64,000 nucleotides of DNA from Pseudohongiella acticola. Lineage in GTDB: Bacteria > Pseudomonadota > Gammaproteobacteria > Pseudomonadales > Pseudohongiellaceae. Each line of letters begins with the position of its first letter. Within the stretch, counting starts at the first letter, position 1. The notes beneath the pieces were generated by a model. It had not been told where the DNA came from and did no database searches. It saw nothing but the letters and a program-made list of their open reading frames with translations. Shown here piece by piece: positions 3,385 to 44,218 of the stretch. A program made the translations under genes and the position numbers. The stretch spans positions 248,001 through 312,000 of the forward strand of contig NZ_MASR01000002.1 in the NCBI RefSeq assembly GCF_001758195.1. The letters are read 5' to 3'.

Positions 3385-6201
3385 TCATTCACGCTTGGGC
3401 GTGACCAGTGCCTCGAGCATTTCCAGCTGCGAGGTCAAAAAATCAGCGGTGGTGTTGAACCGTGAAATGATCAGGTCGTTAGCAGTAAACGACGATTGCA
3501 GGCGTCGCTCGGAGCGTTCCATGCGCTCTTCAAGTTCAACACGGCGCTCGGCTATGCTCTCCAACTCACCGTTCAGGGACTCCTGTCGGCCACTCAGGAC
3601 ACCGCCGGGTTCCAGGAACGCGGTAAGCAGCGTATTCATCCGGTCCGCCGCACCACGCGCATAATCAATGGTGCCGCGATCACCAGTCTCGCCGCCATTT
3701 ACCCGAATTCGAAGTCCGGATGACGGGTCAGGCTCGCCGCTGGCAGCCACACCGGCTTCGCCGCGGGCGCCACGACCAATGCTGAAGCCCAGGAGGCTGC
3801 CGGCGTTTCCATCAAGCTGGGCAATTCGGACACTGGAGGACGCACCGGTTGACTTTGAGATGATGCCGAACGAGCCAGACGGAGTATCGTAATCAACGAT
3901 GACGCCAACACCGGCCGCTATCATTGCAGGGCTGTTATTGATCACGGTCTGCATGGCGGCAGCAACATCTTCTGGGCTGGTGCTGCCAAGCTCACCGAGT
4001 GAGATCGCACCTGATAAAACACCGTCCACCTCAACCCGAAAACTGTCGGCCGATGTGCTGGTTGATAAATCGCCGTGCGCGACGTTCAGATAGAAGCCCT
4101 GTCGTGCAGCGATGGCGCCCGTTGAGGCGGTCAGGAACTGGCCATTGCCTTGTGCTTCGATACCATTGATGGTCCCGGCAACATCGACGCCGCGGATGGA
4201 CGTAACCGGCGCCCCGGAGCCGAGGAATAAACCCAGTTTGCTCGCCGCTGCAAAGTTGACTTCGGTAAACTGGATATCGTCTCCGGCATTGTCGGTAGAG
4301 AAAATCAGACGCCCCTGCTCATTGTCGGCATTGTATTCGTAAGCCACGCTGACCGTGATGCCTTCACCGGCGAGCGCATCATTTATTTGCGTTTCCAGCG
4401 CGCTCGTCAACTCATCAGGCGTCGTGTAGGTAACCGGCGTGCCCGCATCACCTGGCAAGGCCAGTTCACCGGTGCTAATGCCGTTGATACTAAGCTCGAA
4501 GGCGGTACTTGCATCAATCACCAGTGCGTCTGTGAACGGGTCACTGCTCAAGCCACCGGTAGTGGCCAGCGCATTTAGCTGATTGCCTTCAAACGGGCCG
4601 CGACTGTCAAGCACCAGCCCCAACGTCGACGCCGCCGCCGACGAGACATCACTGAACCTGATGACCGACTCATTGCCATACCGGTTTGAACTTAATTCAA
4701 ATCGCGCTTCGTCGGAGTTGAAAACAACAGTCATGGTGTCTTCCGAATCGATCACATCGGCATTACTGTTGATTTTTGACTGTAATTCAACGGCCAGCTC
4801 TTCAGCCGTGGCATACGTACCCTCAGTCAGGCTGATATCAATCTCGTTGCCATTAAACACCAGGGTAAACGCATTGTTGTCCGCATCAATGACAATATTG
4901 CCCGATGCCAGCGCTGGCACACTTATACCCTGGTAACGACCGATCGTAGCCAGCTGCGTGATTTCAAGCGCATAGCTTCCCGGCTGGGTATTGCGCCCGG
5001 CGCCAAGGAAATCAACCTGAGTGTCAGGCACCGTGCCGGTGGCTGCGAACAGACTAGTCACGGCCTGCGGGTCGGCATTGAATGCAGTTTCAAACGCTTC
5101 CCGATCAAATGTCAGCTGATAGTTATTGAACTGATCCGAGGTAACACCGACCTCTGCCAACGAATTAAAGGTCGCGCCTGATGTTACCTGTCGCAACGTG
5201 CTATTGATCTCCGTCATCATTCGACGCAGCGCCGTGTCGCCAGTTAACAGGCTGCCCTGACCTGAGGTACCGGAATCAGGATCGAACGCCGACAACTGAT
5301 CGCTTATCGATTTGAGTCCATTGTAGGCATCAACAAAGCCCTGAACTTTATCCATCAGTTCGCCAGGGTCTTTTTCTATTTCCAGATTAACCGGTCCGTC
5401 CGTGGTAGCTTTCAGGTTTAATGTGACACCCGGAATGACACCGGCAACCAGATTGTTACTGCGAGTGATGGCAAGACCGTTGACCGTAAACGAGGCATTT
5501 TGCGCCGCCTGACTCTGGCTGGCCGTCTGCGATCCAGCATTAAAATTGAATGCATCAAGCCCCGCTGTTCCCGTGCCAGTCAGCTCAATACTCTGATCCG
5601 CTCCGGATTCAGCGCTGGTAAACAGAAGCCGGAAGCCACTGCCATCGTCCACAATGGTCGCCTCGACTCCCATATCAGCCTTGTTAACGGCGTCACGTAT
5701 GCCTGCCAGTGTGTTGTTACTGCTGTTAATGACCAGCGTGCGCCCAGCGACATCGTCGTTGACGGTGAAACCCTGATAAACGCCGCCACCATCAATATCT
5801 GTACTACCAAATCGAAAGCTTAGCGTGCCTGTGCCCACCGCTTCGTTAATAGAGGAATAAGCCTGGGTTGCGATCGTCTGTTTTTGCGCAAGCTGCTGAA
5901 CCTGAACAGAATAATTGCCAGCATCGGCCGTGCTTGCGGCCGTGGCGGTGAGCGCAGACTCGTTGCCAGACACAACTTGGCTGGCGTTAAACGCCGACAG
6001 GCTGTTGAGGCCACGCATCGCTGTCTGCAGCTCGCCAACGACGCTGCTGATTTCGCCGAATGCGGACAGCTTGGCCTCGGCAATTTCCTGCTCGACATCC
6101 AGACGCTGCTCAACCGGAGCCCGTTCGGCCTCCAGCAGTGACTCCAGCAGCTCGCTAGTCAACAGACCGGAGCCAATACCTAGCGATTGAATAGTTGCCA
6201 T
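3385..6201 (-). CDS. fliD: Flagellar filament cap FliD (oversized)
   Basis: The N-terminus (IQSLGIGSGLLTSELLESLL followed by QRLDVEQ) and the C-terminal coiled coil (residues about 860-938, LNGELESIAERRVELEERM) are the D0/D1 helices of the filament cap protein. FliD pentamers sit on the filament tip and guide flagellin insertion. Typical FliD is around 450-500 residues; this one is 938, with the extra length in the middle. That insertion contains repeated flagellin hook-IN-like units, each with a beta motif such as FRVEVDGVLSGAISL followed by an AAAMQTVINNS-type helix. The gene is followed by fliS and preceded by a sigma-54 promoter. Confidence 0.93.
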   Translation of the reverse strand: MATIQSLGIGSGLLTSELLESLLEAERAPVEQRLDVEQEIAEAKLSAFGEISSVVGELQTAMRGLNSLSAFNASQVVSGNESALTATAASTADAGNYSVQVQQLAQKQTIATQAYSSINEAVGTGTLSFRFGSTDIDGGGVYQGFTVNDDVAGRTLVINSSNNTLAGIRDAVNKADMGVEATIVDDGSGFRLLFTSAESGADQSIELTGTGTAGLDAFNFNAGSQTASQSQAAQNASFTVNGLAITRSNNLVAGVIPGVTLNLKATTDGPVNLEIEKDPGELMDKVQGFVDAYNGLKSISDQLSAFDPDSGTSGQGSLLTGDTALRRMMTEINSTLRQVTSGATFNSLAEVGVTSDQFNNYQLTFDREAFETAFNADPQAVTSLFAATGTVPDTQVDFLGAGRNTQPGSYALEITQLATIGRYQGISVPALASGNIVIDADNNAFTLVFNGNEIDISLTEGTYATAEELAVELQSKINSNADVIDSEDTMTVVFNSDEARFELSSNRYGNESVIRFSDVSSAAASTLGLVLDSRGPFEGNQLNALATTGGLSSDPFTDALVIDASTAFELSINGISTGELALPGDAGTPVTYTTPDELTSALETQINDALAGEGITVSVAYEYNADNEQGRLIFSTDNAGDDIQFTEVNFAAASKLGLFLGSGAPVTSIRGVDVAGTINGIEAQGNGQFLTASTGAIAARQGFYLNVAHGDLSTSTSADSFRVEVDGVLSGAISLGELGSTSPEDVAAAMQTVINNSPAMIAAGVGVIVDYDTPSGSFGIISKSTGASSSVRIAQLDGNAGSLLGFSIGRGARGEAGVAASGEPDPSSGLRIRVNGGETGDRGTIDYARGAADRMNTLLTAFLEPGGVLSGRQESLNGELESIAERRVELEERMERSERRLQSSFTANDLIISRFNTTADFLTSQLEMLEALVTPKRE

Positions 6202-6240
6202 ACACAGTTAGCCGTTTGTTTGATGCCAGTTCGTTGCTAA

Positions 6241-6256
6241 AGCAATATCCAGGCCA
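6241..6256 (-). promoter_or_regulatory. Sigma-54 promoter for fliD-fliS
   Basis: On the minus strand the sequence is TGGCCTG, four bases (GATA), then TTGCT, matching the -24/-12 sigma-54 layout TGGCACG-N4-TTGC(A/T) with exact spacing. It ends 40 bases before the fliD ATG. FleQ in this window is the obvious activator. The promoter is predicted from sequence only. Confidence 0.75.
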
Positions 6257-6435
6257 GTCACCACAGGCCATTGGATCCTGCGTTTCTGACCCGCTTATGT
6301 ACTGGTTATCGGATAGTTGCGGATAATCTTGACCCGTCAGACGGCAAACCTTTGCCGCCCGGTTGATAGCAAAAGCATTGAGTGTCGGCCCCAGCCTCGC
6401 TAGAATCGCAATTAACCTAACAGGGAGAAGAAGCT

Positions 6436-8279: not shown

Positions 8280-11200
8280 TTACTGGAGCAGTGACAGTAC
8301 CTGCTGACCAGAGGCATTCGCCTGAGACAGGATGGAGATACCAGCCTGTTGCAGAACCTGTGAACGTGCCAGGTTAGCTGCTTCTGCCGCGAAGTCCGCA
8401 TCACGGATTCGTGAGTTGGCTGCTGACAGGTTCTCAGAGTTGATCGCCAGGTTGGAGATCGTGGCTTCAAACCGGTTTTGCACCGCACCGAGGTCTGCTC
8501 GTGCGCTGTTTACCGAGTTCAAGGCATTGTCGATCGCCGACAGAGCTTCAACCGCGCCCTTCTGGGTAGAGATATCCACCTCATTCAGGAACTGACCAGC
8601 GACTGCGCCACCGAAATCACCTTTCTGGAAACCCAGAGCTGCCAGGTCATCATTGCCGTTGGTACCACCAGACAACTCGATGGTGCCTGCAGAGCTCAGC
8701 GTTACTGTAGAGTAAGTGGTTGAGGCAACTGCGTCTGCAGCAGCAAGGTCAACGGCACCCGAACCGAAGTCGGACTCCCCAACGCCACCCAGACCAAAGT
8801 TAGCAGCGCTTGCGCCGCCGTTGGTATTCATCGCCAACGACACGTTACGACCATCAGCAGCTGTCAGTGTAACGCTGGTACCGTTATCTTCAGCAACCAC
8901 ACCTGTCTGGCCAGTGGCCGCATTGATCTGGTTGACCGCGAAGGCACGGTTTGAGTCAGCATCTGCCTGAACTGTCAGGCCTACATCAACGCCATTCAGG
9001 TACAGTGTTGCTGTATTACCGGCAACACCCGATGTTGCTGCAGTCGAGCCAGCAGTTGTGGTTGCGTTAACAGTCGCCGTTACACCCGTAGACTCAGTCG
9101 AACGGTTGATGGCTGCCGCGATAGAGATACCTGACGCTTCTTTACTGCTTGATGCAGAGCCCGCGTAGGAAGACGTATCGTCGGTTGCCTTGGCTGCACC
9201 GATGTTGATGCTGTTGATCACCATGTCACCTGCCTGCAGGTTAGCGAAGCCGGCAGCACCAGCGTCAACACCCGAGTCAGAGCCAGCGACCAGGCCCAGT
9301 TCAGCAGCGGCATTGCCGCCGAGGTTGGCGATGGTGATGGAGCTGCTATCGCCAGTTGTGTTGGACGTGATCACCAGTTCGCCATCGTCGTTGATCGAAG
9401 CAGCCGCGCCTGTCAGCTGACCATTGATTTCGTTCAACAGGTCCGCTTCGCTGGCAACGTTGTTATCAACATTGATGCTCTGCACAGTACCGCCATTGAC
9501 GTAGACATCAAAGGTAGCATTGGTTGGGTTGACCGCGACCACACCGGTATCGGTAGAACCTTCACCCAGTCCCAGTGCTGCAGCAGCATTCACGCTACCA
9601 GCATTGTCATTGAAAGTGATGGTATCACCGCCATTGGCATCTTCAGTAAATACCAGCTCGTTGTCGACGTTCAGTGTGGCTGTGAAGCCTGAACCAGCGA
9701 TGGCGGTGTTGATATCAGCCAGCAACTGTGTATTACCGTCGCCCAGGTTGCCGCCGTTGTCGGCATCCAGGTAGCTGGAGTTCAGCGTAACCGTGTCTGT
9801 ACCACCGTCAGTTGTTACGATATTGAAAGAAATATCCAGAGCCGCAGTACCCGAATCTGTCGCATTCTGCAGGCCCAGAATGGCACCACCGGCGACACTG
9901 CCTTGCGCGTTGCTGACAGTGGCCAGACTGGTCGCGCCAGTGGTGGCGGAGGTGATCACCAGGTTGCCATCGCCGTCCAGAGACGAAGTAGCCACCGCGC
10001 CACCAAAATCTGCGTTGATTTCAGCATCAATCGCAGCCAGCAAGGCTGCACTGTTAGCAATGTTGCTGTTCAGGTTGATGGTCTGGGTACCCAGACCATC
10101 GATTTCCAGGTCGAATGAGCCGGTTGCCGTGTCAGCGGTGCCCGCATCGGTGTCGTTAGCAGCGGTAAAACCAAACACTGTATCAGCATCAGTCGAAGCA
10201 AAACCAGCCGTGAAAATAACGGTTTCTTCAGCGGCTGTATCCTGGGTAAAGGTCAGCTTGGTACCATCGGTCAGCGATGCAGTAAAGCCGGAACCGGCGA
10301 TCTGGCCATTGATATCAGCCAGCAGCGCGGTATTACCGGACCCTACACCAAGGCCTACCGTGGCATCCGTATAGTTTTGATCGATTGTGACATCGTAGTT
10401 AGCGCCATCGACCACACTCAAGGTGAAGGCGACATCGTTAGCGCCGGAGAAGTCTGTACCGGTTGCGGATATATCCACCGTACCGGCAATCTCGGCCGCA
10501 ACACCATTATTGGTAAAGTCATTGGCAAAAACTGCCAGATCAACACCGGTTGTTGCCGTGGCTGCTGCAGCAGAGGCTACCGAGAAGTCAGTACCGGTTG
10601 CGCTCAACTGCACACCACCGTTCAGTGTTGCCAGCTCAGCCTGAACACCAGAGCTGTAGTCAAAGGCCACGTTGGCCGTGCTGGTACCTTCAACCGCACC
10701 CGCTTCAGCCGCTGTGCCGGGGCCGGCAACCTGTGCAGTAGAGCTGACGTTGGCAACGCCTGCGTTGTAAGTGCCTGATGCCAGGCCCGCTGCAGCTGTG
10801 TTGCTGCCGCTGATGGCAATTTTGTTGGTGCCACTGTCGGCAACCAGAGTGACGCCACCCGTGTAAGTGCCGGATGCGGCCAGACCTGTTGATGCAGCAG
10901 TCAAGGCGCCGCTGGTGCTCAGGTCGAGCTCGATGTTTCGGCCATCTTCTGCCACCAGACTTACGCCCAGTGCGCTGTCGCCGGTGTCAATCGCGGTAAC
11001 ACCAGTCAGTGTAGACTGAGCATTAATCGCAGTGACCACAGCAGAACGTGAAGAATCGGCATCAGTTGTTGTTTCGATGCTGATTTCAGTGCCGTTGATA
11101 GAGATGCTGCCTGCAAGTGCGGCAGCCGTCATTTCACTACCAGCGGCAACGTTTTCGTCTACCAGTGCGGTTACGCCAGAATCAGCAGAGACGCGATTAA

Positions 11201-12488: not shown

Positions 12489-13733
12489 TCAGAAGTAATT
12501 AAACAGCGACAGCTTACTGACCTTACTGAAACTGGCCTGTGCTGCTTCCAGCACAAAGGTCTCCTGAGTCAACTGACTTATCGCTTTGGCAAAATCAAGG
12601 TCTTCCAGTTCCGACAAAGCGGTATCAATCACCAGATCAAAATCATCATTGCTGGATTTTGCGGACTCAACCTGATTCAGGCGCGCACCGACAGCAGCCC
12701 GGGTATCCAGCAACTTGCCCTGAGCGCCATCCAGATTGGTGATGGTGCGGGCCAGCGCCTGATCCCGGGTCTGACGATCGGCGGTTGAATTACCGGTCTG
12801 CTGCAGCACCTGAATATAGTCTTCGATACCGGCAAGCAGTCCTTTACGGTTATCGGACTCCACCATAAAGGTGTCACCTGGAGCGGGTTGTCCCTGAATA
12901 CGAACCGACAACCCGTTAAACTCAATATTATTGCCGGAAACGTATCGAATATTTTCGCTGATTACGCGCCCATCGGAAACCTGCCGGATGCTGAAATTGA
13001 CACCGGGTGGTGACACATCATTTTCCGAATTGAATTCAATCACGGCACTTTCCGGGTAAAAGTTTTCAAACTGTTCACGATTGCGAATGGCAGCGCCGTC
13101 GATTTTGGCGGGCGGCACCGCGGTGTTGCTGTCGCTGGCGCTTGCTTTGAAGCCCGCCTCCACGCCGGGAATATTCATGAACACTTCATAACCAGAATCA
13201 TTGGCCGCAACTGAAGTAACCGGGCCCACCTGAATAAACCGCTGACCTTCATCACCCTGATAGGCATAACGACCATCGGCGCCTTTTTCAAAAGGCTGGG
13301 TTTTACCCTGATACCCGGAAAACAGATACTCACCGCTGGCGTCGCGGCTGTTCATCAACTGCGCCATGCCATCAACCAGAGACTGCAACTCTACCGCAAT
13401 AAAATTACGTTGATCCTTGTTGAGGGCGGCATTGCCCGACTGGGTAATCAGCTCCTGCGCTTTTTGTATCTGATCACTGATGCCGGCGATCGCAGTCTCT
13501 TCACGCTGCAGACGATTGTTCAACGTAGACAGACTATTGTTGAACTGGTTGGTATTGGCTTTTTCCTGTTTGAGCTGCAGGATACGCGCAGCCGCGATCG
13601 GATCATCCGCCGGGGACAAAACTTTCTTGCCAGTCGACAGCTGTTCCTGAGTACGATTGGCCGCTTTTTGCACGTCCAGCATGGCATTAAGGCCGCGGTT
13701 GTAAATCTGGCTGGTTGATAATCTGACAGTCAT
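12489..13733 (-). CDS. flgL: Flagellar hook-filament junction protein FlgL (HAP3)
   Basis: A 414-residue flagellin-like protein. The N-terminal MTVRLSTSQIYNRGLNAML and QLSTGKKVLSPADDPIAAAR segments, and the C-terminal LDFAKAISQLTQETFVLEAAQASFSKVSKLSLF, are the conserved D0/D1 parts of FlgL. FlgL joins the hook (through FlgK) to the filament and is exported by the flagellar type III system. It is the last gene of the flgB-L cluster, 19 bases after flgK, and about the usual length or slightly longer. Confidence 0.95.
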   Translation of the reverse strand: MTVRLSTSQIYNRGLNAMLDVQKAANRTQEQLSTGKKVLSPADDPIAAARILQLKQEKANTNQFNNSLSTLNNRLQREETAIAGISDQIQKAQELITQSGNAALNKDQRNFIAVELQSLVDGMAQLMNSRDASGEYLFSGYQGKTQPFEKGADGRYAYQGDEGQRFIQVGPVTSVAANDSGYEVFMNIPGVEAGFKASASDSNTAVPPAKIDGAAIRNREQFENFYPESAVIEFNSENDVSPPGVNFSIRQVSDGRVISENIRYVSGNNIEFNGLSVRIQGQPAPGDTFMVESDNRKGLLAGIEDYIQVLQQTGNSTADRQTRDQALARTITNLDGAQGKLLDTRAAVGARLNQVESAKSSNDDFDLVIDTALSELEDLDFAKAISQLTQETFVLEAAQASFSKVSKLSLFNYF

Positions 13734-13752
13734 TTAGAGATCACCTCGGCAA

Positions 13753-16434
13753 TTACATATTAAGCAGGGTATCGAAAAGATCCCGTGCCAACCCGATCAG
13801 ACGTGCAGATGCATTGTAGTGCTGTTCCAGTTGAATCAGTCGCGCGGCTTCCTCCTCCAGGTTGACGCCAGACACCGACTGCATGGCATCCATGGATTGT
13901 CGCAACATGGACTCGCTGGCACTTTGATTGACACGCGCCTGGCTGGTCAGTATGCCCAGTTTCTCCGCCAGCTGACCGTATGCTTCCTGATAGGTCAGAT
14001 TACCTTCAGACAACACCGATTTGCTGCCCAGTGCCAGCATGGCAGCACCATTACGACTGTCCGCCGAACCATTCTTGTTATAGCTGACAGTAAATGTATC
14101 ACCCGCCTTGGGCTGTCCATCCGGGCCGCTGCCGCTGGTCATGCTGATCTGTATGCCCAGAAAGTTCTTCTGTGCCGTGGGCGAGGCACCAAACAGTCCA
14201 GTACTGATATCAGAGCTCAATTCGGTATTGGCCGCCAGTTGCACGTCCATTTTGCCGCCCACGGTAAAGTCCACTGCCGGATCTGCCGGCAATGGTGCCG
14301 TGATCAGATCAGCCCCGTCTCCCACCGTCAGCGAGCCACCGCCATCGACACTGAAGTTCAGGTCGATACCGGTGTTGGCAAACACGCTGAGTTTAACGCC
14401 ATCACTTTTTGCAGTAATGCCCAGTGCAGCGAGGTCCGGATTACCGTTGATACGGTCGCGCAGAAAATCAGCGGTCAATGGAACTGGCACGTCCTGCGCC
14501 ACCGATTCGCCGGGCAGCACGAAGTCGGGGTCGGTAATATCCACGCCATTCAATGTCAGCTGCAGGGCTTCACCGGGCCCACCTGCGGTAAAATCCTGCA
14601 GGCTGGTCTGGGTATAGGCGGTGGCACTGACACCGCTGAGCGCAGACAATCTGCGGGCAGTGACTGAAGCCTCTTCGCCGGCAGCAGCCGTGACGCTTTG
14701 CTGTTTAATAAAACCGGTGTCAGGATCAGTGGTTTCCAGAGTAATGACCTCACCCGGATAACCATTGTTGGTCGATGCCAATTGCAACAGACCAGCGACG
14801 GCGGTGTCGGTACTGACAGTGGTGCCATCGGGATCGGTCGGTAACAGCGGGTTCTGGGAACCGGGCACAAACGGCAGGTTTCTCAACGGCGGATCCAGCT
14901 GGACAGGATTGGCCGGGTTGGAGTAGTCCAGCACATCGTAGGTTGTGGCCGACGTAAAGCGAATGCCCAGCGGCGGACTGAAACTGCCATTTTTGGCAAA
15001 AAACGCCGTATCCGTACTGATCACCTGAGAGCTGAGAAGCTCGGCACCACCCTGGTTACCACTGGCCGTATCGATGCGTAGCGGCGAGGCAAAAGCGAAT
15101 TCCTCCGACCGTGTAATCTGCATTTGCATCTGGCCCACACCCGTTCGGGTCGGTTGCAACAGAAAACGATCGCCGGCCGTGAACGTGCCTTCATCTATAT
15201 GCAGCGTAAAGCCGTCGATACTGATCTCTTGTGGGCGGGCTTCGCTCAACATGCCCTTTTCCATGACTTCGCCATCGGATTTACGCACAATGTTGTATTG
15301 TTGTCCGCCAGGCCCCGGAAAGGTCAGTTCGTAGTCACTGGTCGTCAAAGCGGCCAGATCGTCAATGGTGATACTCATGTCTTTGTTATAAGGCGGTGAG
15401 TTGCGGCTGTCGGCCCGAACCCGTTCGCTGGCAACGTCAGCCTTATTGATGTCGGCGAACACACCACCGCCGAGACTGCCCTCAAGATCCATGCCCAGTT
15501 TGTTCTGCTGGTTTATGCCATCCGTAATGGCCAGCCCGATACGCCCCAGCGAATTCAGCGCAGGGTCCAGTGCTTCGTTGCGGAAACGCACCAGCCCGCC
15601 CAGCTCGCCACCGGCCATCTGCCGGGTAATGTTTTGCAGAGAGTTACCTTTGCTGAAGAACAGCTCATACCGACTGGAGTCCTGGTTGCCCGGCCCTGCG
15701 ATCAGCTTCTGGGTTTCAGCCCCCACCACCAGCGGCTGGTTCTGGCCAATAAACACGTCCATGCCGCCGTCTTCGCGATCGATGGTGCTGACATTGACAT
15801 ACTGTGACAATTCGCGAACCAATGTATCGCGCTCATCCAGCAGATCGTTCGGACTCTGACCTGTGCCACCGCCCTGAGCATCGGCAATCACCTGGTTCAG
15901 CTCAGCAATCTGCTGACCCAGCGAGGTGACTGTGCCAGCGGCCGCCTGCATCTGTTTATTGACCGACAGGTTCTGTTCCAGCAACCGAGATTCCACGCCT
16001 TCAAAACTGGACACCATCTGCTGGGTCTGGGACATCAACAGCTGTCTGCCCAGCAGCGAACCGGGGTCATTGACGGCTTCATTCAGCGCATCAAAATAAC
16101 CATTCATGGCATTCGCCAGGCTGGTCTGTTCCGAGGCCAGCAGGTTATTGGTCTGCGAGATATTGAACAGGTAGGTATCGTAGTCGCTGAGCGCACCGAT
16201 ATCCTGAACCACCTGGTCGACCAGATGTTTTTCGGTGTTGCGGTATATGTCATTGACCTGCACACCGGTACCAAGATAGCCGGCAGCGGTGCGTGTTGAA
16301 ATCGTGGTCGACTGCGATACCGACTGGCGGCTATAGCCTTCGGTGTTGGCGTTAACGATATTGTTACCGGTGACCGACAGGGCTGTCTGATTCAGGCGAA
16401 TGCCGCTGATCGCGGTGTTGATCAGGTTGCTCAT
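13753..16434 (-). CDS. flgK: Flagellar hook-associated protein FlgK (oversized)
   Basis: An N-terminal rod/hook-type motif (LINTAISGIRLNQTALSVTG, then NIVNANTEGYSRQ) and the C-terminal EEEAARLIQLEQHYNASARLI helix identify FlgK, the first junction protein distal to the hook. At 893 residues it is much longer than the usual 550-650. The added central sequence is Gly/Pro/Thr-rich and partly internally similar (for example LRIDTASGN and DITDPDFVLPGES regions). flgJ ends one base before the FlgK ATG and flgL starts shortly after, so translation is probably coupled along the operon. Confidence 0.94.
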   Translation of the reverse strand: MSNLINTAISGIRLNQTALSVTGNNIVNANTEGYSRQSVSQSTTISTRTAAGYLGTGVQVNDIYRNTEKHLVDQVVQDIGALSDYDTYLFNISQTNNLLASEQTSLANAMNGYFDALNEAVNDPGSLLGRQLLMSQTQQMVSSFEGVESRLLEQNLSVNKQMQAAAGTVTSLGQQIAELNQVIADAQGGGTGQSPNDLLDERDTLVRELSQYVNVSTIDREDGGMDVFIGQNQPLVVGAETQKLIAGPGNQDSSRYELFFSKGNSLQNITRQMAGGELGGLVRFRNEALDPALNSLGRIGLAITDGINQQNKLGMDLEGSLGGGVFADINKADVASERVRADSRNSPPYNKDMSITIDDLAALTTSDYELTFPGPGGQQYNIVRKSDGEVMEKGMLSEARPQEISIDGFTLHIDEGTFTAGDRFLLQPTRTGVGQMQMQITRSEEFAFASPLRIDTASGNQGGAELLSSQVISTDTAFFAKNGSFSPPLGIRFTSATTYDVLDYSNPANPVQLDPPLRNLPFVPGSQNPLLPTDPDGTTVSTDTAVAGLLQLASTNNGYPGEVITLETTDPDTGFIKQQSVTAAAGEEASVTARRLSALSGVSATAYTQTSLQDFTAGGPGEALQLTLNGVDITDPDFVLPGESVAQDVPVPLTADFLRDRINGNPDLAALGITAKSDGVKLSVFANTGIDLNFSVDGGGSLTVGDGADLITAPLPADPAVDFTVGGKMDVQLAANTELSSDISTGLFGASPTAQKNFLGIQISMTSGSGPDGQPKAGDTFTVSYNKNGSADSRNGAAMLALGSKSVLSEGNLTYQEAYGQLAEKLGILTSQARVNQSASESMLRQSMDAMQSVSGVNLEEEAARLIQLEQHYNASARLIGLARDLFDTLLNM

Positions 16435-35660: not shown

Positions 35661-36785
35661 TCAGTTGTCTCTTTCTTCCATTTCACATTGCTCTTCCCGC
35701 ACAGCCGCCACCGCACTGTCGGCAATCAACGCCTGCGACGCTGCGTGCTCCGCCATGGCAATGTTGTCCGCCGCCAGTGTCAGATCACAGCCAGCCGTCC
35801 GCGTTTCATCAGCCAGCGCGGCAATGGCCTGCGTACGCTCAGGTGTGTTACTGACATCCCGGATATAGATACTCAGTATGCGTCCCGGATTCTCTCTCAG
35901 GACACGAAGATAGGTTTCCGGATCATGCTGGCCGGAATCCCCCACCAGCACAAACTGCATGTCAGGGTAAATCGCAAGAATGTGGCGAATCGCATCCAGT
36001 TTGTGATCCCTGGCTCTGCGCGGCAACAGACTGCCGCGTTTCATGCCCCATTCTCGCAGAATCAGGATGGGCCCACCGGGAATCCGGTTGCGGTGGAACA
36101 CTTCCACCAGCACATCATAGATACTCCAGGGCCCGCGCGACACATAGAACAGCGGGTTGCTTGCCCCACCCTCACGACCCTCATGGAACGCCTGATACAA
36201 AGCAGGCACACCGGGAAATACGACACGGCTCTCCGCCCCCTGGGCAAACAGACGCCACATCATCATGAATGTGTTGGCCACCCCCGTGTAAACCACCGTA
36301 TCGTCGATATCGCTGATCACACCGTGACGGGCAGAAGGCAAGGGTGTATAGAATTCGCCGATAGTGCTGGCACGTTCATCGACAGGGTTGTCCAGCGACA
36401 GATCCACCTGATGCCAGCACACGTCCGACGGCATTTCCCCCAGTGCCATGTCCACCCGGAAAAAGCCATGCCGGTCGGAGCTGACGAGGGTGTCGGTATC
36501 CTTGTACCTGACCCGGACGCTGGCACCAACAATCGGTTTGCGTAGCAGTCGGCGTAACAGATCAATCAGGTCCCGCCGCAGTCTGTCTTCACGCCAGGAA
36601 GCGCCGAATCCCGGCTGCCGGAAAACCTGCCCCATCAGGAACACCCGGTCCCGGGAGCCGTAACCACGATAAGCCTGAATAAAAAGACCGCCACGACCAT
36701 TGTCACCTTTGACCGGTGACGCCAGAATGTGGAGCCCCCGTCGAAGGGATACTGCGTAACGATGCAAGCGACCCTGAAAAGACAT
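35661..36785 (-). CDS. DUF2183 (App1-like) phosphatase-domain protein
   Basis: A 374-residue soluble protein. An N-terminal beta region (residues about 30-130, with VGASVRVRYKDTDTLVSSD) precedes a HAD-like App1/DUF2183 domain with DIDDTV at 159-164, FYVSRGPWSIYDVL and FVLVGDSGQHDPETY. In yeast App1 the related domain is a phosphatidate phosphatase; the substrate in bacteria is not established. The ATG at 36785 has GAGGG about five bases upstream; the frame also allows a TTG at 36800. The gene lies exactly between a tRNA-Arg gene and a decayed copy of its 3' half, so it may have arrived by tRNA-targeted integration. Confidence 0.82.
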   Translation of the reverse strand: MSFQGRLHRYAVSLRRGLHILASPVKGDNGRGGLFIQAYRGYGSRDRVFLMGQVFRQPGFGASWREDRLRRDLIDLLRRLLRKPIVGASVRVRYKDTDTLVSSDRHGFFRVDMALGEMPSDVCWHQVDLSLDNPVDERASTIGEFYTPLPSARHGVISDIDDTVVYTGVANTFMMMWRLFAQGAESRVVFPGVPALYQAFHEGREGGASNPLFYVSRGPWSIYDVLVEVFHRNRIPGGPILILREWGMKRGSLLPRRARDHKLDAIRHILAIYPDMQFVLVGDSGQHDPETYLRVLRENPGRILSIYIRDVSNTPERTQAIAALADETRTAGCDLTLAADNIAMAEHAASQALIADSAVAAVREEQCEMEERDN

Positions 36786-36907
36786 CAAACCCTCTTTCAA
36801 CTCTGGACAAATCTGAGCTTATCACAGCCAGCTGCCGTCGACACGGTGGCGGCGACTGGCGCCTCCCGCCAGCGTGGGCTACCATTGTGAATGATCTTAT
36901 ACCGTCA

Positions 36908-36993: not shown

Positions 36994-38133
36994 TTGACTA
37001 ATGAATCCCAAACCTACAGAACCCTGCAGACCGAACTGAGGCGAGCTGCTTTATCCGGTTTTGTCGGATTTCTGCTGTGTGCTTCGTTGCTGTTCATAAC
37101 AACCACGGCAGAGAACACGTTGTTGTATTTGAGCGCCAGCGTGATGTTGTGGCTACTGGCCTGGCACCAAAGCAACAAACGCCTGCACCTGAACCGTGCC
37201 AATACCTCTGCTGCCCTGCAGTCTGATCTGGGACCCGCCAACTGCATGACCCTGAGCCGTGGCTGGCTGATAGCCGCCACTGGCGGGTTTTTGTTGATCC
37301 CGGACGTACTGGCAACCCACCCCGTGCTGTTGTGGATTGCGGCAGCGCTGTACTCGGTGGCCGCCATCTTTGACCGCGTCGATGGTTACCTGGCCCGACG
37401 CAGCCAGCGCACCAGTCTGCTGGGCGCCGAACTCGACACGGTGTTTGATGCCCTGGGCCTGCTGATCGCGCCAGTGCTGGCCCTGCAGCACGGAAAAATT
37501 CACGCCTCCTACCTGCTGGTCAGTGTCGCCTACTACCTGTTTGTTGTCGGCATCAAAGTGCGGGAACGCAATCACAAACCGGTTTATGCTTTGCCGCCGA
37601 GCGTGTTGCGCCGGACGTTGGCCGGTTTCCAGATGGGGTATGTCGCGGTGGTATTATGGCCACCCTTCAGAGCCGAGATCACAGTGCTGGCCGGATTCGG
37701 ATTCATGGTGCCATTGTTGATCGGCTTCACCGTCGACTGGCTGCTGGTCAGCGGTCGCCTGCAGAGGCGGCCGCAACGCTACGCTATGTTGCAGCAGGTC
37801 ACGCACAATGCGCTGCTGCCGGTACTGAGACTGATGCTGCCGTTGTCAGCCTGGTTGATTGTCAGTGACGGGTTCCCTGTGACACCAGCTTTGTTCATGC
37901 CGATTACTGGCCTGTTCATTATCGGTGTGTCGCTGATGCTACTGGGACTGGCTGGTCGGGCAGGCGCGGTCGCGGTGTTGATGCTACTGGCGTGGACCGG
38001 TCCGGCACCCGATGACTCAATTGCGGCTGTTTTCTGTCTCTTTGCATCAATCACCATTCTGCTACTGGGCTGCGGTAGATTCAGTGCCTGGCAGGCCGAT
38101 GACGATTGGGTTAATCGACAGGATGGTGCCTGA
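36994..38133 (+). CDS. CDP-alcohol phosphatidyltransferase family membrane protein
   Basis: A 379-residue polytopic membrane protein. The complete CDP-alcohol phosphotransferase motif is present: D127, D130, G131, A134, R135, G144, D148 and D152 (DRVDGYLAR, then GAELDTVFD). These enzymes transfer a phosphoalcohol from a CDP-linked donor to an alcohol acceptor, usually making phospholipids. Many additional hydrophobic helices flank the motif, making it longer than typical PgsA-like enzymes (about 180-200 aa). The only usable start is TTG at 36994, without a clear ribosome site. It overlaps the next gene (TGATG), so the two are an operon. Donor and acceptor are unknown. Confidence 0.82.
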   Translation: MTNESQTYRTLQTELRRAALSGFVGFLLCASLLFITTTAENTLLYLSASVMLWLLAWHQSNKRLHLNRANTSAALQSDLGPANCMTLSRGWLIAATGGFLLIPDVLATHPVLLWIAAALYSVAAIFDRVDGYLARRSQRTSLLGAELDTVFDALGLLIAPVLALQHGKIHASYLLVSVAYYLFVVGIKVRERNHKPVYALPPSVLRRTLAGFQMGYVAVVLWPPFRAEITVLAGFGFMVPLLIGFTVDWLLVSGRLQRRPQRYAMLQQVTHNALLPVLRLMLPLSAWLIVSDGFPVTPALFMPITGLFIIGVSLMLLGLAGRAGAVAVLMLLAWTGPAPDDSIAAVFCLFASITILLLGCGRFSAWQADDDWVNRQDGA

Positions 38134-39152
38134 TGCCACAGTCACGCTGGATCGCCCTGTTACTGTGGCCGCTGGCCCTGGCACTGGTTACCTGGACACT
38201 CAGCCAGATGCCGCTGGCAGGGCTCAGCGGCATTCTGGCAGAACTGCACTGGCATCAGTGGGTGTTGTGGACACTGGTTAACGTGCTGGTCATTGCCGTG
38301 AGTACGGAACGCTGGCGGCGACTGGGTCGTATGCTGGGCGAGGCACCGGGATTCTGGCAGATGCTGCTGATTCGTCAGGCCGGACAGACAGTCAGTTTTA
38401 TTACTCCGGCACCACATTTTGGCGGCGAACCTTTCCAGATCTACTGGCTGGTCAAACGCGCCGGGATGAGCATCCATCGCGCGGTGCTGTCGCTGGCGCT
38501 GGACCGGTTCTACGAGCTGTGGATAAATTTTCTGGTGTTGATGCTGGGTGTCAGCCTGATATTGCTGGCACCGCAAGCGGCAACGATCGTCAGCAACAGT
38601 CAGATAACAGATAACCAGGTCAGCGACTGGCAGGTCATTCTGCTGCTCCTGCTGACACTGTTGGTGGCTTTGTCGATAATAGCCTGGGTTTTGATCAGGC
38701 AACCCGCGCTGATTTCGTCAAGGTTGGAAAAAGTCAGTGCACGCTGGTTTGACAGCCCGAAGCTGGCGGCGCTGGGTGCTCATTGGCATTCGCTGGGCAG
38801 CGACATCAAAAAAGTTGTTCGCACCCAGAAAGCTGAATTATTGAATGCCCTGTTATTATCCTTGCTGGGCTGGGCATTGATGATTTTTGAAGTGTGGTTG
38901 GCGCTGAGTTTTTTTGATATCAGGCTGGATACGGTTGCGCTGGCGCAGATCATGGTAGCAATGCGCCTGGCCCTGTTGCTGCCGCTGCCCGGCGGCATTG
39001 GCAGCCTGGAAGCCGCGGTGCTGTGGAGCTTTCAGACCCTGTCATTGCCAATGGAGGCAGCGCTGGGGCTGATTGCATTGACGCGTCTGCGCGATGTGCT
39101 GGTATTGGTGTCTGGCGCAGTCTGCCTGTATACACTGCGAAAGAAGCACTGA
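38133..39152 (+). CDS. Flippase-like/LPG synthase TM family membrane protein (UPF0104-like)
   Basis: A 339-residue integral membrane protein with about eight hydrophobic segments. The block STERWRRLGRMLG, the FITPAPHFGGEPFQIYWL motif and the late LLPLPGGIGSLEAAVLW motif are characteristic of the lysylphosphatidylglycerol synthase transmembrane/UPF0104 family. Members are implicated in lipid or lipid-linked sugar translocation, but most are uncharacterised. It shares TGATG with the preceding CDP-alcohol transferase, so the pair probably makes and moves a lipid product. It converges on the PTPS-like gene with a 30-base gap. Confidence 0.82.
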   Translation: MPQSRWIALLLWPLALALVTWTLSQMPLAGLSGILAELHWHQWVLWTLVNVLVIAVSTERWRRLGRMLGEAPGFWQMLLIRQAGQTVSFITPAPHFGGEPFQIYWLVKRAGMSIHRAVLSLALDRFYELWINFLVLMLGVSLILLAPQAATIVSNSQITDNQVSDWQVILLLLLTLLVALSIIAWVLIRQPALISSRLEKVSARWFDSPKLAALGAHWHSLGSDIKKVVRTQKAELLNALLLSLLGWALMIFEVWLALSFFDIRLDTVALAQIMVAMRLALLLPLPGGIGSLEAAVLWSFQTLSLPMEAALGLIALTRLRDVLVLVSGAVCLYTLRKKH

Positions 39153-39182: not shown

Positions 39183-39560
39183 TCAGAATGACTGCCGGTA
39201 AGCCGCCCAACAAGTCGCATTCTCCCACAGTTTCACATTCAACAGACCACTGCCCGGTGGTTTGATATTGGCCATCAGGCGCTCACAGATGATGCGACTG
39301 AAATGTTCAATACTGGGATTCAGACCGGCAAACTCGGGTTTGTCATTAAGCATGCTGTCACGAAAATCTTCAACAATGCTGTCCAGTGCGGCTTCGATTT
39401 CAACGATGTCGACAAGGTAACCGTGCTTGTCCAGCTCTGCCGCTTCAATGCTGACTTCAGCAACATAGTGATGAGCATGGGGTGAGTTTTCACTCCCCCA
39501 ATCCCCGCCGATCAGATAGTGATTGGCGATAAAATCCTTGGTCACAGCAACAGTGTACAT
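39183..39560 (-). CDS. 6-pyruvoyltetrahydropterin synthase-like protein with Glu replacing the catalytic Cys
   Basis: A 125-residue protein of the PTPS/QueD fold. The zinc-binding histidines are H14 (IANHYL), H28 and H30 (PHAHHY). Canonical members have Cys four residues before the HxH pair; here that position is Glu24 (ENSPHAH). A Cys-to-Glu change is described for PTPS-III enzymes, which make 6-hydroxymethyl-dihydropterin from dihydroneopterin triphosphate. The C-terminal VKLWENATCWAAY segment supplies the family Glu. It lies 52 bases after the dehydrogenase gene on the same strand. The substrate here is an inference from neighbours. Confidence 0.82.
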   Translation of the reverse strand: MYTVAVTKDFIANHYLIGGDWGSENSPHAHHYVAEVSIEAAELDKHGYLVDIVEIEAALDSIVEDFRDSMLNDKPEFAGLNPSIEHFSRIICERLMANIKPPGSGLLNVKLWENATCWAAYRQSF

Positions 39561-39612: not shown

Positions 39613-40656
39613 TTATGGGTAGACAAATACAGCCTGCAGTACCTCTTCGTGTTTATTGTGCAACATCTGATACAGCGCAGCCGCCTCATCCAGTGCGTGG
39701 CGATGACTGATCAATGTCTGTGGTTGCAGGTGCCGGATCATCTGCCAGCAAATATCAAATCGTCGGGTTTTGTCCCAGCGCCCGGACAGGCCCGGAGCCA
39801 GGGTACTGACCTGACTGGTGGTAATCTTCAGACGATTACGATGGGCTTCGCCACCCAGCGCAATGGCGGCAGACTTTTTACCATACCAGCTGCCAATAAC
39901 GATGCGGGCGTCAAAACCACTGAGCGCAATGGCCTGGTTTAGCGCATCCGGCACGCCGCTGACTTCGTAAATAAGATCAGCGCCCTTGCCACCCAGAACA
40001 TCACACTGGATGCTGGCCAGATCAGCCAGCGGATCTAAACTGGCACTGGCACCCTGCTTCAGTGAACACTGCCGTCGCCTGGCCTGGGTATCCAGTGTAT
40101 ACAGGCCGCTCAGTGGATGTCTGGCCAGCACACCGGTCAACAGCAACCCGACAATGCCCTGCCCGAGCACCACCACGTGTTCGCCTATCATGGGCGCGCC
40201 ATCCTGAACCAGATTGACCGCGGTCTCCATATTGGGCAGAAAAACCGCGGCCTCAGTGTCTACATCCTCGGGCACCGGTGTCAGTTGCTCTGCAGTACTA
40301 ATAAAATGCGAGGCATGCGGCTGAAAGGAAAATACCCGACGACCAACCCAGGCGAGGTCAACACCCTCACCCACATCCATGACTTCGCCCACGCATGCGT
40401 AGCCGTATTGCAACGGATACGTCGATGCAGATGACAGTGACGCCAGATTAGCGTCAAGTGACATTTCTTCCGGCAGTTCGCCCCGATAGACCAGCAACTC
40501 AGACCCGGCGCTGATGGCAGAGCACAACGATTTTACGCGCAACTGGCCTGGGCCCGGCGCAGGCAATGCGACAGATCTTTCTTCAAGCTGCTGCGGCGCA
40601 GTAAACCACAGCTGCCGGCTTGTAATCTGCTGATTGCGTGCTGGCTGTATTTCCAT
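39613..40656 (-). CDS. Zinc-type alcohol dehydrogenase-like (MDR) protein
   Basis: A 347-residue medium-chain dehydrogenase/reductase. The N-terminal GroES-like domain has LCSAISAGSELLVYRGELP and YPLQYGYACVGEVMDVGEGV. The Rossmann part has VVVLGQGIVGLLLTGVLA followed by LIYEVSGVPDALNQA. The usual catalytic zinc ligands (Cys in CGTD, His in GHE) are not apparent: the first appears as SAGSE and the second as YGYACVGE. It may therefore act without catalytic zinc. The start overlaps the stop of the RibD-like gene (TGATG), indicating one operon with it. The substrate is unknown. Confidence 0.78.
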   Translation of the reverse strand: MEIQPARNQQITSRQLWFTAPQQLEERSVALPAPGPGQLRVKSLCSAISAGSELLVYRGELPEEMSLDANLASLSSASTYPLQYGYACVGEVMDVGEGVDLAWVGRRVFSFQPHASHFISTAEQLTPVPEDVDTEAAVFLPNMETAVNLVQDGAPMIGEHVVVLGQGIVGLLLTGVLARHPLSGLYTLDTQARRRQCSLKQGASASLDPLADLASIQCDVLGGKGADLIYEVSGVPDALNQAIALSGFDARIVIGSWYGKKSAAIALGGEAHRNRLKITTSQVSTLAPGLSGRWDKTRRFDICWQMIRHLQPQTLISHRHALDEAAALYQMLHNKHEEVLQAVFVYP

Positions 40657-41399
40657 CAGCTTGCTCCAGCGTGATCGGCATCTTCGTCGCCGGCAACATT
40701 ATCATACTGCACCTTGCCCCACATGATCACATCGCTGCCCAGCGTATCGGTAAACACCGGCGCAATCTTCGGCAAGGCAGCTCTGTCGCTGAACTGAAGA
40801 TCCCCCACGGCCTTGTAACCCCCGACCAGTCGGGGCGCAACTGTCAGCACGATGGCGTCCACCAGCTTCTGTTTCAGGAAGCCCGTGATGACATTGGCGC
40901 CGCCTTCCACCATCAGGCTGTTGATTCCACGTTGCTTCAGTTCACCGAGAGCGTCGTGCAATGACACCCGGCCCGCACTGTCACCCGGCAGGCGAATGAC
41001 TTCCAGAGCGGAGTCAACCGGGCAGGCCGTCTCAGCACTGGTCAGAACCCAGCACCGCTTGTCCGACAGGTGGCACAATCGCGCACCGGGCGGAATTCTG
41101 AATTGCGCGTCCAGTACAATTGGCTGTGGATCAGGCCCCTGCCATTGCCGGACATTCAACCTTGGGTCATCGGACAGCACGGTGCCTATACCGACCAGAA
41201 TGCCATCATGCAGACTTCGCAAATGGTGGGTCAACTGCATAGCGGGCTCACCGCTTAAGGCCAGCGGCTCACCGGATTGCAACGTGATGCTGCCGTCCCA
41301 GCTCTGGGCATAACTCAGGGTGACAAAGGGACGGTCGCGGGCAACCAATTGTGCCCGCTGGGACAGCAGCCAGCTTTCAATTTGCTGGTTCAGATTCAT
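40656..41399 (-). CDS. Stand-alone RibD C-terminal (reductase) domain protein
   Basis: A 247-residue protein of the RibD_C/dihydrofolate-reductase-like family without the deaminase half found in RibD. Typical segments are RPFVTLSYAQSWDGSI, HHLRSLHDGILVGIGTVLSDDPRLN and LMVEGGANVITGFLKQKLVD. In riboflavin synthesis this domain reduces the ribosyl group of the GTP cyclohydrolase II-derived pyrimidine to ribityl using NADPH. It starts 23 bases inside the GTP cyclohydrolase II gene and overlaps the dehydrogenase gene, so the three are translationally coupled. A reductase acting on the product of the upstream enzyme is the simplest reading. Confidence 0.85.
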   Translation of the reverse strand: MNLNQQIESWLLSQRAQLVARDRPFVTLSYAQSWDGSITLQSGEPLALSGEPAMQLTHHLRSLHDGILVGIGTVLSDDPRLNVRQWQGPDPQPIVLDAQFRIPPGARLCHLSDKRCWVLTSAETACPVDSALEVIRLPGDSAGRVSLHDALGELKQRGINSLMVEGGANVITGFLKQKLVDAIVLTVAPRLVGGYKAVGDLQFSDRAALPKIAPVFTDTLGSDVIMWGKVQYDNVAGDEDADHAGAS

Positions 41400-42084
41400 T
41401 CTTTCCCCTGGCGCTCACGTTTGCTGTCGTTGTCGCTTTTATATTTCTTTCATTTTGCGACATGTCCAGCATGTGATCCATACGTGTGGCCTTGGCCAAC
41501 AGGTAAGCTTTGTTGTCGGCATTGACAGGGGCTTCCAGTGAAACCCGCGAGCTGACCTTGATGCCCGATGCCTGCAGTGCCGAAATTTTTAACGGGTTAT
41601 TGGTCATCAGTTGCACGGACGCCACCCCAAGGTCTTCCAGGATGCAGGCCGCCAGTGAGTATTCGCGTTCATCGGCCTCGTGCCCAAGCATCAGGTTTGC
41701 GTCAACGGTATCATAGCCCTGATCCTGCAAATTATAGGCATCAAGTTTGGCCATCAATCCGATGCCCCGGCCCTCCTGTCGCAGATAGACTATGACGCCC
41801 TGGCCTTTGGCGGCCACCAGCGCCATGGAACGTTGCAACTGCTCCCCGCAATCGCAGCGCCTCGATCCCATCACGTCTCCGGTAAAACACTCAGAGTGCA
41901 CGCGCGTTAATATGTCTTCGCCGGCAACGTCACCCAGACAGAATGCCAGATGCTCTTTGTTGTCGATCGAATTGGTATAATACAGCAACTGAAAATCGCC
42001 ATGCTCGGTCGGAATGCGTCCCGATGTCACGCGTTTCACCGTGGCCTGGATTTTGTCTGTCTTGAGCGTCCTGATGCTTGTCAT
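41377..42084 (-). CDS. GTP cyclohydrolase II (RibA-type)
   Basis: A 235-residue stand-alone GTP cyclohydrolase II. The zinc ligands are Cys66, Cys77 and Cys79 in HSECFTGDVMGSRRCDCGEQ, followed by VYLRQEGRGIGLMAK and later TNNPLKISALQASGI. The enzyme converts GTP to 2,5-diamino-6-ribosylamino-pyrimidinone phosphate plus formate and pyrophosphate. There is no DHBP synthase domain. The ATG at 42084 begins MTSIRTLK; the frame is open further up. A sigma-70 promoter ends only nine bases upstream, so the message would be leaderless or nearly so. No ribB, ribE or ribH is nearby, suggesting a job other than riboflavin. Confidence 0.88.
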   Translation of the reverse strand: MTSIRTLKTDKIQATVKRVTSGRIPTEHGDFQLLYYTNSIDNKEHLAFCLGDVAGEDILTRVHSECFTGDVMGSRRCDCGEQLQRSMALVAAKGQGVIVYLRQEGRGIGLMAKLDAYNLQDQGYDTVDANLMLGHEADEREYSLAACILEDLGVASVQLMTNNPLKISALQASGIKVSSRVSLEAPVNADNKAYLLAKATRMDHMLDMSQNERNIKATTTANVSARGKNESEPAN

Positions 42085-42092
42085 AGTCCGAA

Positions 42093-42121
42093 ATATTACG
42101 GTGCCGCCCTGCAATAGGCAA
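42093..42121 (-). promoter_or_regulatory. Sigma-70 promoter for the GTP cyclohydrolase II operon
   Basis: The minus strand carries TTGCCT, 17 bases, then TAATAT. Each box has four to five matches to consensus, and spacing is optimal. Transcription would start at about 42086, almost at the ATG at 42084. Confidence 0.6.
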
Positions 42122-42279: not shown

Positions 42280-43380
42280 ATGAATGTCCACTTGCCTTTA
42301 ACGGATGTGCACTTGACGCCAGAACTGTATTTTGTCATTCCCGGGGAGTTAAAGACGCTGACCGGTGGCTACGCCTACGATCGAGAATTGATGACTGCCC
42401 TGAGACATGCAGGCATCATCGTCCATCACGTGACATTGTCTGGACAGTTTCCGACGCCGGACGAATCCGCACTGGCCGATGCAGGTGCACAGCTGGCAGC
42501 CATCCCCGATCAGGCTCTGGTGTTAATTGATGGCCTTGCTTATGGCGTCATGGACACCCTGGCGGCCCGGGAGCACCACCGCCTGCGAATTATTGCGCTG
42601 TGCCACCACCCACTGGCGCTGGAGACGGGTCTGACTGAAGATGTCAAAGCCGCGTTGTTGCAGTCAGAACGAACAGCACTGACCCTGGCCTGCGCCGTTG
42701 TTGTCACCAGCTCAGCCACCGCCTCCCTGCTCACTGAACGCTTTGATGTTTCTGCCGACAAAATCACGGTTGCCCTGCCCGGCACTGGCAGACCTGCGTT
42801 TGCACCGTGCCGGGGACAGCCGCCCTGTTTGCTGACAGTGGCGACACTGACTCGTCGCAAAGCACATGACGTCCTGATCAGTGCTCTGTCACGCGTTGAG
42901 GCGCTGCCATGGCGCGCACGCTTTGTCGGTGGCGATCAGTTTGACCCGGCCTGGTCAGCGCAGCTCAGGACACAGGTTGCCGACCTGGGCCTTGGCGAGC
43001 GCATTCAATTTGCAGGCAGTGTCGACGACCTGAACACTGAATATGCCGCCGCCGATGTATTCGTCCTGCCCTCACGCTTTGAAGGCTACGGGATGGTATT
43101 TGCTGAAGCGTTGTCCTATGGCCTGCCCGTCATCGCCGCACATGCGGGTGCCGTGCCAGATGTGGTACCTGACAGTGCCGGCATTCTGGTCGCGCCTGAT
43201 GATGCAGACAAGCTGGCAGCGGCACTTCACGCTATACTGTCAACGCCGTCACATTTTGCCGCCTTGCGGCGTGGTGCCCAGGCGGCGGCTGCACAGTTAC
43301 CGCAATGGCAGAATACCGCCAACCAACTCATAGCGGTTTTGCAGACCGTTGCCCAACAACAGGTGAACCAACAGACATGA
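42280..43380 (+). CDS. Glycosyltransferase family 4
   Basis: A 366-residue GT-B enzyme. The N-terminal domain has PGELKTLTGGYAYDRELM and the C-terminal domain carries GT4 motifs: LLTVATLTRRKAHDVLISAL, VFVLPSRFEGYGMVFAEALSYG (with E-x7-E-type Glu residues) and GLPVIAAHAGAVPDVV. Such enzymes are retaining and use NDP- or GDP-sugars. The ATG at 42280 gives a usual N-terminus just before the beta-strand LYFVIP; the frame also extends upstream to 42136. It is followed by the methyltransferase gene and diverges from the GTP cyclohydrolase II operon. The acceptor is unknown. Confidence 0.85.
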   Translation: MNVHLPLTDVHLTPELYFVIPGELKTLTGGYAYDRELMTALRHAGIIVHHVTLSGQFPTPDESALADAGAQLAAIPDQALVLIDGLAYGVMDTLAAREHHRLRIIALCHHPLALETGLTEDVKAALLQSERTALTLACAVVVTSSATASLLTERFDVSADKITVALPGTGRPAFAPCRGQPPCLLTVATLTRRKAHDVLISALSRVEALPWRARFVGGDQFDPAWSAQLRTQVADLGLGERIQFAGSVDDLNTEYAAADVFVLPSRFEGYGMVFAEALSYGLPVIAAHAGAVPDVVPDSAGILVAPDDADKLAAALHAILSTPSHFAALRRGAQAAAAQLPQWQNTANQLIAVLQTVAQQQVNQQT

Positions 43381-43417: not shown

Positions 43418-44218
43418 GTGAGCGGATTTTCTGTAAGCTGGCTGGACCTGCGTGAACCGGCTGACCACGCGGCACGCGACCAGGAACTGGCCAGCAAGCT
43501 GGTGCGCCATTTGCAGGCCGATGCCGATATTTCCCCGATCATTGTCGACCTGGGCTCTGGCACCGGTTCGACACTTCGCGCGTTGACGGCGCTGGGCGCA
43601 CAGCGCTGTGTCTGGCGCCTGGTGGATCACGATCCAGGACTGCTTAACGAGGCTCTGCGGCGACACGGCCACAGCGAAATCGTCGAGGATTACGAAGCCG
43701 ACCTGAACGACGTCGATGCCTTACCGCTGGGCGGACTGACCTTGCTGTCGGCGTCGGCTCTTTTTGATCTGGCTTCAACACAGCTCATTGACGCGCTGGT
43801 GGCGCGTGTGCGCCGCCAGTCGGCGGTGTTTTATGCGGCCCTGAACTATGACGGCAACACACAATGGACACCGCCACATCCGCTGGATGACGCTGTGCTC
43901 AAGGCGTTTAATCAGGACCAGCGCCGCGACAAAGGGCTGGGTGCTGCACTGGGACCGGAGGCGGCCGAATACATAAAAACTACACTGGAAACCGCTGGTT
44001 ACACTGTTTACCAAGCGGCAAGCCCGTGGCAACTGGGCCCTGATCAACACTCGCTGCTAGCTGAATTGATTGCGGGAATCCGGGCAGCCGCCGGCAATGG
44101 CGGCACGCTGTCCATAACAGAGCTGGACCAGTGGCAGTCTTTTCGTGTGTCCCACGTTAATAGCGGCAACGCTGTCATCGGGCATCTCGACGTGCTCGCG
44201 TTTCCACCCGGAGCCTGA
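43418..44218 (+). CDS. Class I SAM-dependent methyltransferase
   Basis: A 266-residue protein with the Rossmann SAM-binding motif IIVDLGSGTGSTLRAL, an acidic residue in WRLVDHDPGLL (motif II) and LTLLSASALFDLAS (motif IV region). The acceptor is not predictable; the C-terminal AASPWQLGPDQHSLLAELI segment suggests a small-molecule methyltransferase. The start is GTG at 43418 with CAGGG seven bases upstream. It lies 37 bases after the GT4 gene and four bases before the GGDEF gene, so the three may be co-transcribed. Confidence 0.83.
   Translation: MSGFSVSWLDLREPADHAARDQELASKLVRHLQADADISPIIVDLGSGTGSTLRALTALGAQRCVWRLVDHDPGLLNEALRRHGHSEIVEDYEADLNDVDALPLGGLTLLSASALFDLASTQLIDALVARVRRQSAVFYAALNYDGNTQWTPPHPLDDAVLKAFNQDQRRDKGLGAALGPEAAEYIKTTLETAGYTVYQAASPWQLGPDQHSLLAELIAGIRAAAGNGGTLSITELDQWQSFRVSHVNSGNAVIGHLDVLAFPPGA

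Follow-up and report, generated by a model that had tools for sequence, protein, structure and literature searches.

The window analysed here, a 64,000-nucleotide stretch of Pseudohongiella acticola DNA, contains an operon in the order GCHII, RibD_C, MDR and PTPS, with PTPS last. The first three genes overlap at their ends and 52 bases separate them from PTPS. Genes for a GT4 glycosyltransferase and a methyltransferase are divergent on one side of the operon, and genes for a CDP-alcohol transferase and a flippase-like protein lie on the other. The features are as follows.

36994-38133, plus strand: CDP-alcohol phosphatidyltransferase with an additional membrane part (PF01066, 59 bits)
38133-39152, plus strand: flippase-like membrane protein, LPG_synthase_TM (PF03706, 103 bits)
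39183-39560, minus strand: PTPS-fold protein of clade A, with E24 in the Cys slot, R67-D68 replacing the catalytic Asp-His, and E85 and E113 retained
39613-40656, minus strand: BchC-like MDR oxidoreductase (TIGR01202 bchC, 68 bits, cut-off 291; relatives carry a zinc-binding annotation, zinc ligands absent)
40656-41399, minus strand: stand-alone RibD_C reductase without a deaminase domain (PF01872, 147 bits)
41377-42114, minus strand: GTP cyclohydrolase II, GCHII (TIGR00505, 239 bits; Tyr105 and zinc Cys retained)
42280-43380, plus strand: GT4 glycosyltransferase (PF13692 and PF00534; start set by homology, the ORF opening at 42136)
43418-44218, plus strand: class I SAM-dependent methyltransferase (weak PF13649 match)

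The true start of GCHII may lie inside its TTG ORF, and this copy is one of three GCHII matches in the genome. Elsewhere the genome encodes a canonical QueD (motifs CARLHGH and LDHHYLN), FolE, FolB and a RibD-size long ORF of 398 amino acids, so that the copies at the PTPS locus are extra. The methyltransferase is 45% identical to its cluster relative in Palleronia and 33% to that in Thiodictyon, and the CDP-alcohol transferase has a homologue in a haloarchaeal cluster (E 4e-27). Adjoining the CDP-alcohol transferase gene is one for an APP1-type phosphatidate phosphatase (35661-36800, minus strand), which was unmatched in the related loci searched.

The PTPS gene starts with ATG and encodes 125 amino acids that match PF01242 with 95.4 bits (cut-off 22.4), placing the protein in the PTPS superfamily (T-fold). 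We aligned it with the QueD proteins of E. coli and of the same genome; QueD, RibA and Tdh of E. coli served as yardsticks, and the in-genome QueD reproduces the alignment at the PTPS positions. The protein shares with QueD the fold, the three zinc histidines (H14, H28 and H30, corresponding to H16, H31 and H33) and the positions Asp51, Glu85 and Glu113. It differs in gene context, in HAH for HGH and at the catalytic residues. E24 occupies the position of the catalytic Cys27, four residues ahead of H28, just as the sequence-only reading had placed it, and the loop before HxH holds no Cys in the 36-sequence clade A alignment. The catalytic Asp70-His71 is replaced by Arg67-Asp68; N72-D73 was considered as the counterpart of this pair and rejected on the same alignment. 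E85 and E113 match QueD E86 and E110, which, from general knowledge of PTPS structures, we take to be the pterin-pocket glutamates, and H14, G22, D51, L71, E85 and E113 are retained across all 38 family members as well as in the QueD rows. Because the pocket glutamates are retained and the catalytic residues replaced, the protein appears to have kept its pocket for a 2-amino-4-oxopyrimidine ring and to have lost the known PTPS chemistry.

Conservation within the family is uneven around this site. E24 is invariant in the 36 aligned clade A sequences, which come from Gammaproteobacteria and Chloroflexota, and in haloarchaeal relatives; bacterial clade A also shows no variation at N25, N72, H46 and some other positions. 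The zinc site had been described as intact, and this is so in the window protein and its gammaproteobacterial relatives but not family-wide, as Asn replaces H28 in every Chloroflexota sequence and Ala replaces H30 in the sister clade.

In the PTPS tree, clade A, the E24 type (support 97/91), spans Gammaproteobacteria, Chloroflexota and haloarchaea. Its sister, clade B (98/89), contains the solved orphan SCO6650 (3d7j); here Ala fills the Cys slot, and Asn-Tyr mostly stands in for Asp-His. Together the two clades stand apart from QueD at 100/97, with outgroups of QueD type only. A profile search of solved structures identified SCO6650 of S. coelicolor as the closest (E 7e-14). The AlphaFold model of the window protein has a pLDDT of 85.6, with values of about 70 for residues 11-30, the region of E24 and the zinc ligands, and it superimposes on the best PTPS-family structures with Z 12.6-15.5. 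VIA-align ranked 3d7j at the top, by a difference of 1 (Z 15.5 versus 14.5 for QueD), and Foldseek placed QueD first by E-value and gave 3d7j the highest query TM-score. SCO6650 shares with the window protein the loss of both Cys and Asp-His and the retention of both pocket glutamates, and its clade is found in the same gene neighbourhood. It differs in having Ala for E24, HGA for HAH and Asn-Tyr for Arg-Asp, and in belonging to a separate, well-supported clade. The SCO6650 structure reportedly contained no zinc and the protein no PTPS activity.

The partner genes follow two patterns. The MDR tree shows the same split into A and B as the PTPS tree. Unlike the PTPS split, the window copies of GT4 and the methyltransferase join those of clade B at 100, and the copies of Methylococcaceae and the MH-09jul19 type, Chloroflexota and haloarchaea are grouped apart from the window's; all three partner trees are quick ones with SH-aLRT support only and flagged long branches. 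E24-type and Ala-type PTPS proteins would therefore have the same enzymes as partners, an argument against E24 being essential to the pathway. Glu24 as the mechanistic key was accordingly discarded, since the sister clade has Ala at that site.

The MDR protein resembles BchC in that bchC is its best-scoring NCBIfam model and its family is zinc-free, but its score lies far under the cut-off (68 versus 291 bits). At the positions of the E. coli Tdh zinc ligands C38 and H63, all 35 members have S and Y, Tdh E64 is lost and the structural-zinc lobe is absent. BchC turns a secondary alcohol into a ketone by oxidation. Since zinc-free MDRs include enzymes that reduce C=C bonds as well, the MDR step may run in either direction.

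The MDR-PTPS pairing was seen in four phyla and both domains, and across these the same enzyme families return around relatives of the PTPS protein. The two genes lie on the same strand with MDR upstream in 98/98 loci in which both were found, 90 of them within 600 bases of each other. MDR, GT4 and RibD_C are present at all 38 well-flanked gammaproteobacterial loci and at 15, 14 and 13, respectively, of the 17 clade B loci. Next come GCHII (35/38 and 6/17), the CDP-alcohol transferase (33/38 and 10/17), the flippase (30/38 and 8/17), the methyltransferase (29/38 and 15/17) and a sulfatase-like protein (24/38 and 4/17); a creatininase-family gene occurs at five of the clade B loci. These locus sets contain near relatives, so the counts are not of independent events, and the kinship of MAG records is as labelled, with some labels doubtful. 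The earlier observation that GCHII stands here in place of folate genes proved true, and the arrangement is strongly conserved. Varying subsets of the same families are found on annotated plasmid records of Haloarcula, Halobellus, Haladaptatus, Halomicrococcus, Thiodictyon, Palleronia, Methylosinus, Streptomyces fungicidicus, Agrobacterium, Rhizobium, Microbacterium and a Rhodobacteraceae strain. Two Streptomyces plasmid loci, L108 and L109 (about 9001-9426), carry a clade B PTPS without MDR or other partner genes. No account of these genes as a set turned up in the open-access library searched, and an earlier one may exist outside it.

Several further genes were observed in or beside these clusters. 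Both L108 and L109 have MEKHLA, cupin, MBL-fold and BTAD-regulator genes near PTPS. The sulfatase-annotated family (L027:1865-3517 and L154:3205-4791, 38% identical) recurs beside the cluster and has no Pfam match at E 0.001. YceI-like or cytochrome b561 genes lie by some clusters (L132:10388-10981, L154:12011-12544, L107:11528-12085 and L158:12026-12565), YceI in 5/38 gammaproteobacterial loci and L132, and b561 in 3/38 gammaproteobacterial and three clade B loci; they hint weakly at a redox role in the periplasm. In several Chloroflexota clusters a PF04029 gene (2-phosphosulfolactate phosphatase family; for example L096:7287-7973) is located between MDR and PTPS, and its product could remove a sugar phosphate. 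The Haloarcula cluster L104 encodes a 579-residue Gfo/Idh/MocA protein (4643-6382) with a long C-terminal part past the oxidoreductase domains. The gammaproteobacterial type of cluster also appears in MAG records L042, L060 and L076, labelled Rhodoferax and Klebsiella pneumoniae, labels or bins that look doubtful. Photolyase-family genes occur in relatives both with and without the cluster, and a photolyase antenna role was dropped for want of a clear link.

The genes at the start of the pathway vary between lineages. GTP cyclohydrolase III replaces GCHII in two Haloarcula records. The Chloroflexota clusters are without GCHII and RibD_C; three such genomes have a RibD_C-like gene elsewhere, beside which GCHII was directly read in two of the three, with the RibD_C ORF intact in one reading, and in the third the ORF list at the site shows antisense frames only. 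In L152 and L111, two Streptomyces clusters among the five clade B loci with a creatininase-family gene, Met replaces the catalytic Tyr of GCHII. S. coelicolor GCHII SCO6655, with the same Tyr-to-Met change, reportedly goes no further than the formylated product, and the formyl group is taken off in archaea by ArfB, which is related to creatininase. In both clusters the Met-type GCHII gene lies next to the creatininase gene (L152:12645-13436 and 13479-14138; L111, 13336-14888), as if the formylated product needed a separate deformylase. The creatininase-family protein scores 37 bits with the ArfB model (cut-off 180). A strict tie between the two genes was rejected because creatininase also occurs at L131 with a Tyr-type GCHII and at two loci in which no GCHII turned up (L134 and L137); the deformylase link is thus a hint only.

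Taken from the residues and the neighbourhood, the window protein is probably a repurposed PTPS-fold enzyme of a GCHII-fed pathway that starts from GTP. The cluster shares its first enzymes with the early steps of riboflavin and F420 synthesis (GCHII or GCH III, a RibD/ArfC-type reductase and an ArfB-type amidohydrolase), but lacks deaminase, lumazine synthase and riboflavin synthase and ends instead in PTPS, GT4 and methyltransferase. In the proposed scheme GCHII would convert GTP to 2,5-diamino-6-(5-phosphoribosylamino)pyrimidin-4-one, which RibD_C would reduce to the ribitylamino form. As RibD_C comes without a deaminase domain, the 2-amino group of the ring would stay, fitting the retained pocket glutamates. 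The BchC-like MDR would then oxidize a side-chain hydroxyl; if C2' is the site, the ring could close to give a pterin of the 7,8-dihydroneopterin type. The PTPS-like protein would bind the pyrimidine or pterin via E85 and E113 and either close the ring or act on the side chain. Decoration of the product would fall to the glycosyltransferase and methyltransferase, and its attachment to lipid and its transport perhaps to the CDP-alcohol transferase and flippase. On our best reading the PTPS substrate would be a 2-amino-4-oxopyrimidine or a pterin, derived from GTP by a route that bypasses GTP cyclohydrolase I, with both reaction and product being inferred. It probably differs from the substrates of known PTPS classes, which favours the earlier suggestion that it may be new. 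The cluster as a whole appears to build a sugar-bearing, possibly membrane-linked compound from GTP, and the CDP-alcohol transferase, flippase and sulfatase-like genes suggest lipid attachment and export.

The more detailed versions of this scheme are held with far less confidence. That it represents a widespread and so far undescribed bacterial and archaeal pathway to a glycosylated, methylated and lipid-linked pterin, avoiding GTP cyclohydrolase I by way of GCHII or GCH III, RibD_C, ring-closing dehydrogenation at C2' and a PTPS-fold enzyme whose active site is new, is a tentative proposal, and that the chemistry is exactly as drawn is doubtful. What weighs most against the scheme is the FolE of this genome, which already provides dihydroneopterin triphosphate and would make a second route to plain dihydroneopterin redundant. 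Also against the pathway reading are the presence of GCHII in only 6 and of RibD_C in 13 of the 17 clade B loci, the lack of partners at L108 and L109, and the Chloroflexota clusters without both genes.

Alternatively, the protein could serve the pathway without catalysis, binding a pterin or pyrimidine as a carrier, scaffold or sensor. Such a role would fit the loss of all the usual catalytic residues, and of zinc ligands in two lineages, alongside retained pocket glutamates. We nevertheless consider it unlikely, as the invariance of E24, N25, N72, H46 and other residues in bacterial clade A goes beyond the apparent need of binding, and the same oxidoreductase almost always adjoins PTPS.

The sequence-only reading had likened the Glu change to PTPS-III, and a PTPS-III-type aldolase would convert dihydroneopterin (mono)phosphate to 6-hydroxymethyl-7,8-dihydropterin, with Glu24 replacing the PTPS-III Glu one residue off. 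The published motifs are CxxxHGH for PTPS-I, CxxxxxHGH for PTPS-II and ExxHGH, with Glu three residues before His, for PTPS-III (PMC5041015). The window protein resembles PTPS-III in having a Glu shortly ahead of HxH, and titles of mutant structures treat the P. vivax PTPS Glu as catalytic. Furthermore, the proposed GCHII route could supply the monophosphate, possibly used by some archaeal PTPS-III enzymes (PMC5041015). The likeness fails, however, on closer comparison: the motif is ExxxHAH, with Glu four rather than three residues before His and Asn25 in the PTPS-III slot, the catalytic Asp-His is gone as well, and the sister clade lacks the Glu. The folate context in which PTPS-III replaces FolB is also missing, since FolE and FolB are encoded elsewhere in the genome and the neighbours include no folate genes. 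This aldolase function thus seems improbable.

That the protein is a further QueD, or an ordinary PTPS whose active site has changed, and feeds into queuosine or biopterin synthesis is most improbable, for although relatives are automatically annotated as 6-carboxytetrahydropterin synthase and the fold matches QueD, the QueD model TIGR03367 scores 43.8 bits against a cut-off of 89.25, Cys, Asp and His of the PTPS-I site are all replaced, a canonical QueD is already present elsewhere, no queuosine genes lie alongside, and neither the PTPS-II motif nor a Biopterin_H gene was found in the protein and the genome, respectively. The absence of Biopterin_H from the genome likewise led us to reject cofactor supply for phenylalanine hydroxylase.

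We therefore retain the repurposed PTPS-fold enzyme of a GCHII-fed pathway as the preferred reading. The annotation of its relatives as 6-carboxytetrahydropterin synthase is automatic and probably wrong. If the pathway reading is true, Proteobacteria, Actinomycetota, Chloroflexota and haloarchaea would have in common an undescribed pterin-like or pyrimidine metabolite. The orphan SCO6650 structure would then gain a context, with relatives encoded beside GCHII, RibD_C and an oxidoreductase, and its substrate would become directly testable.
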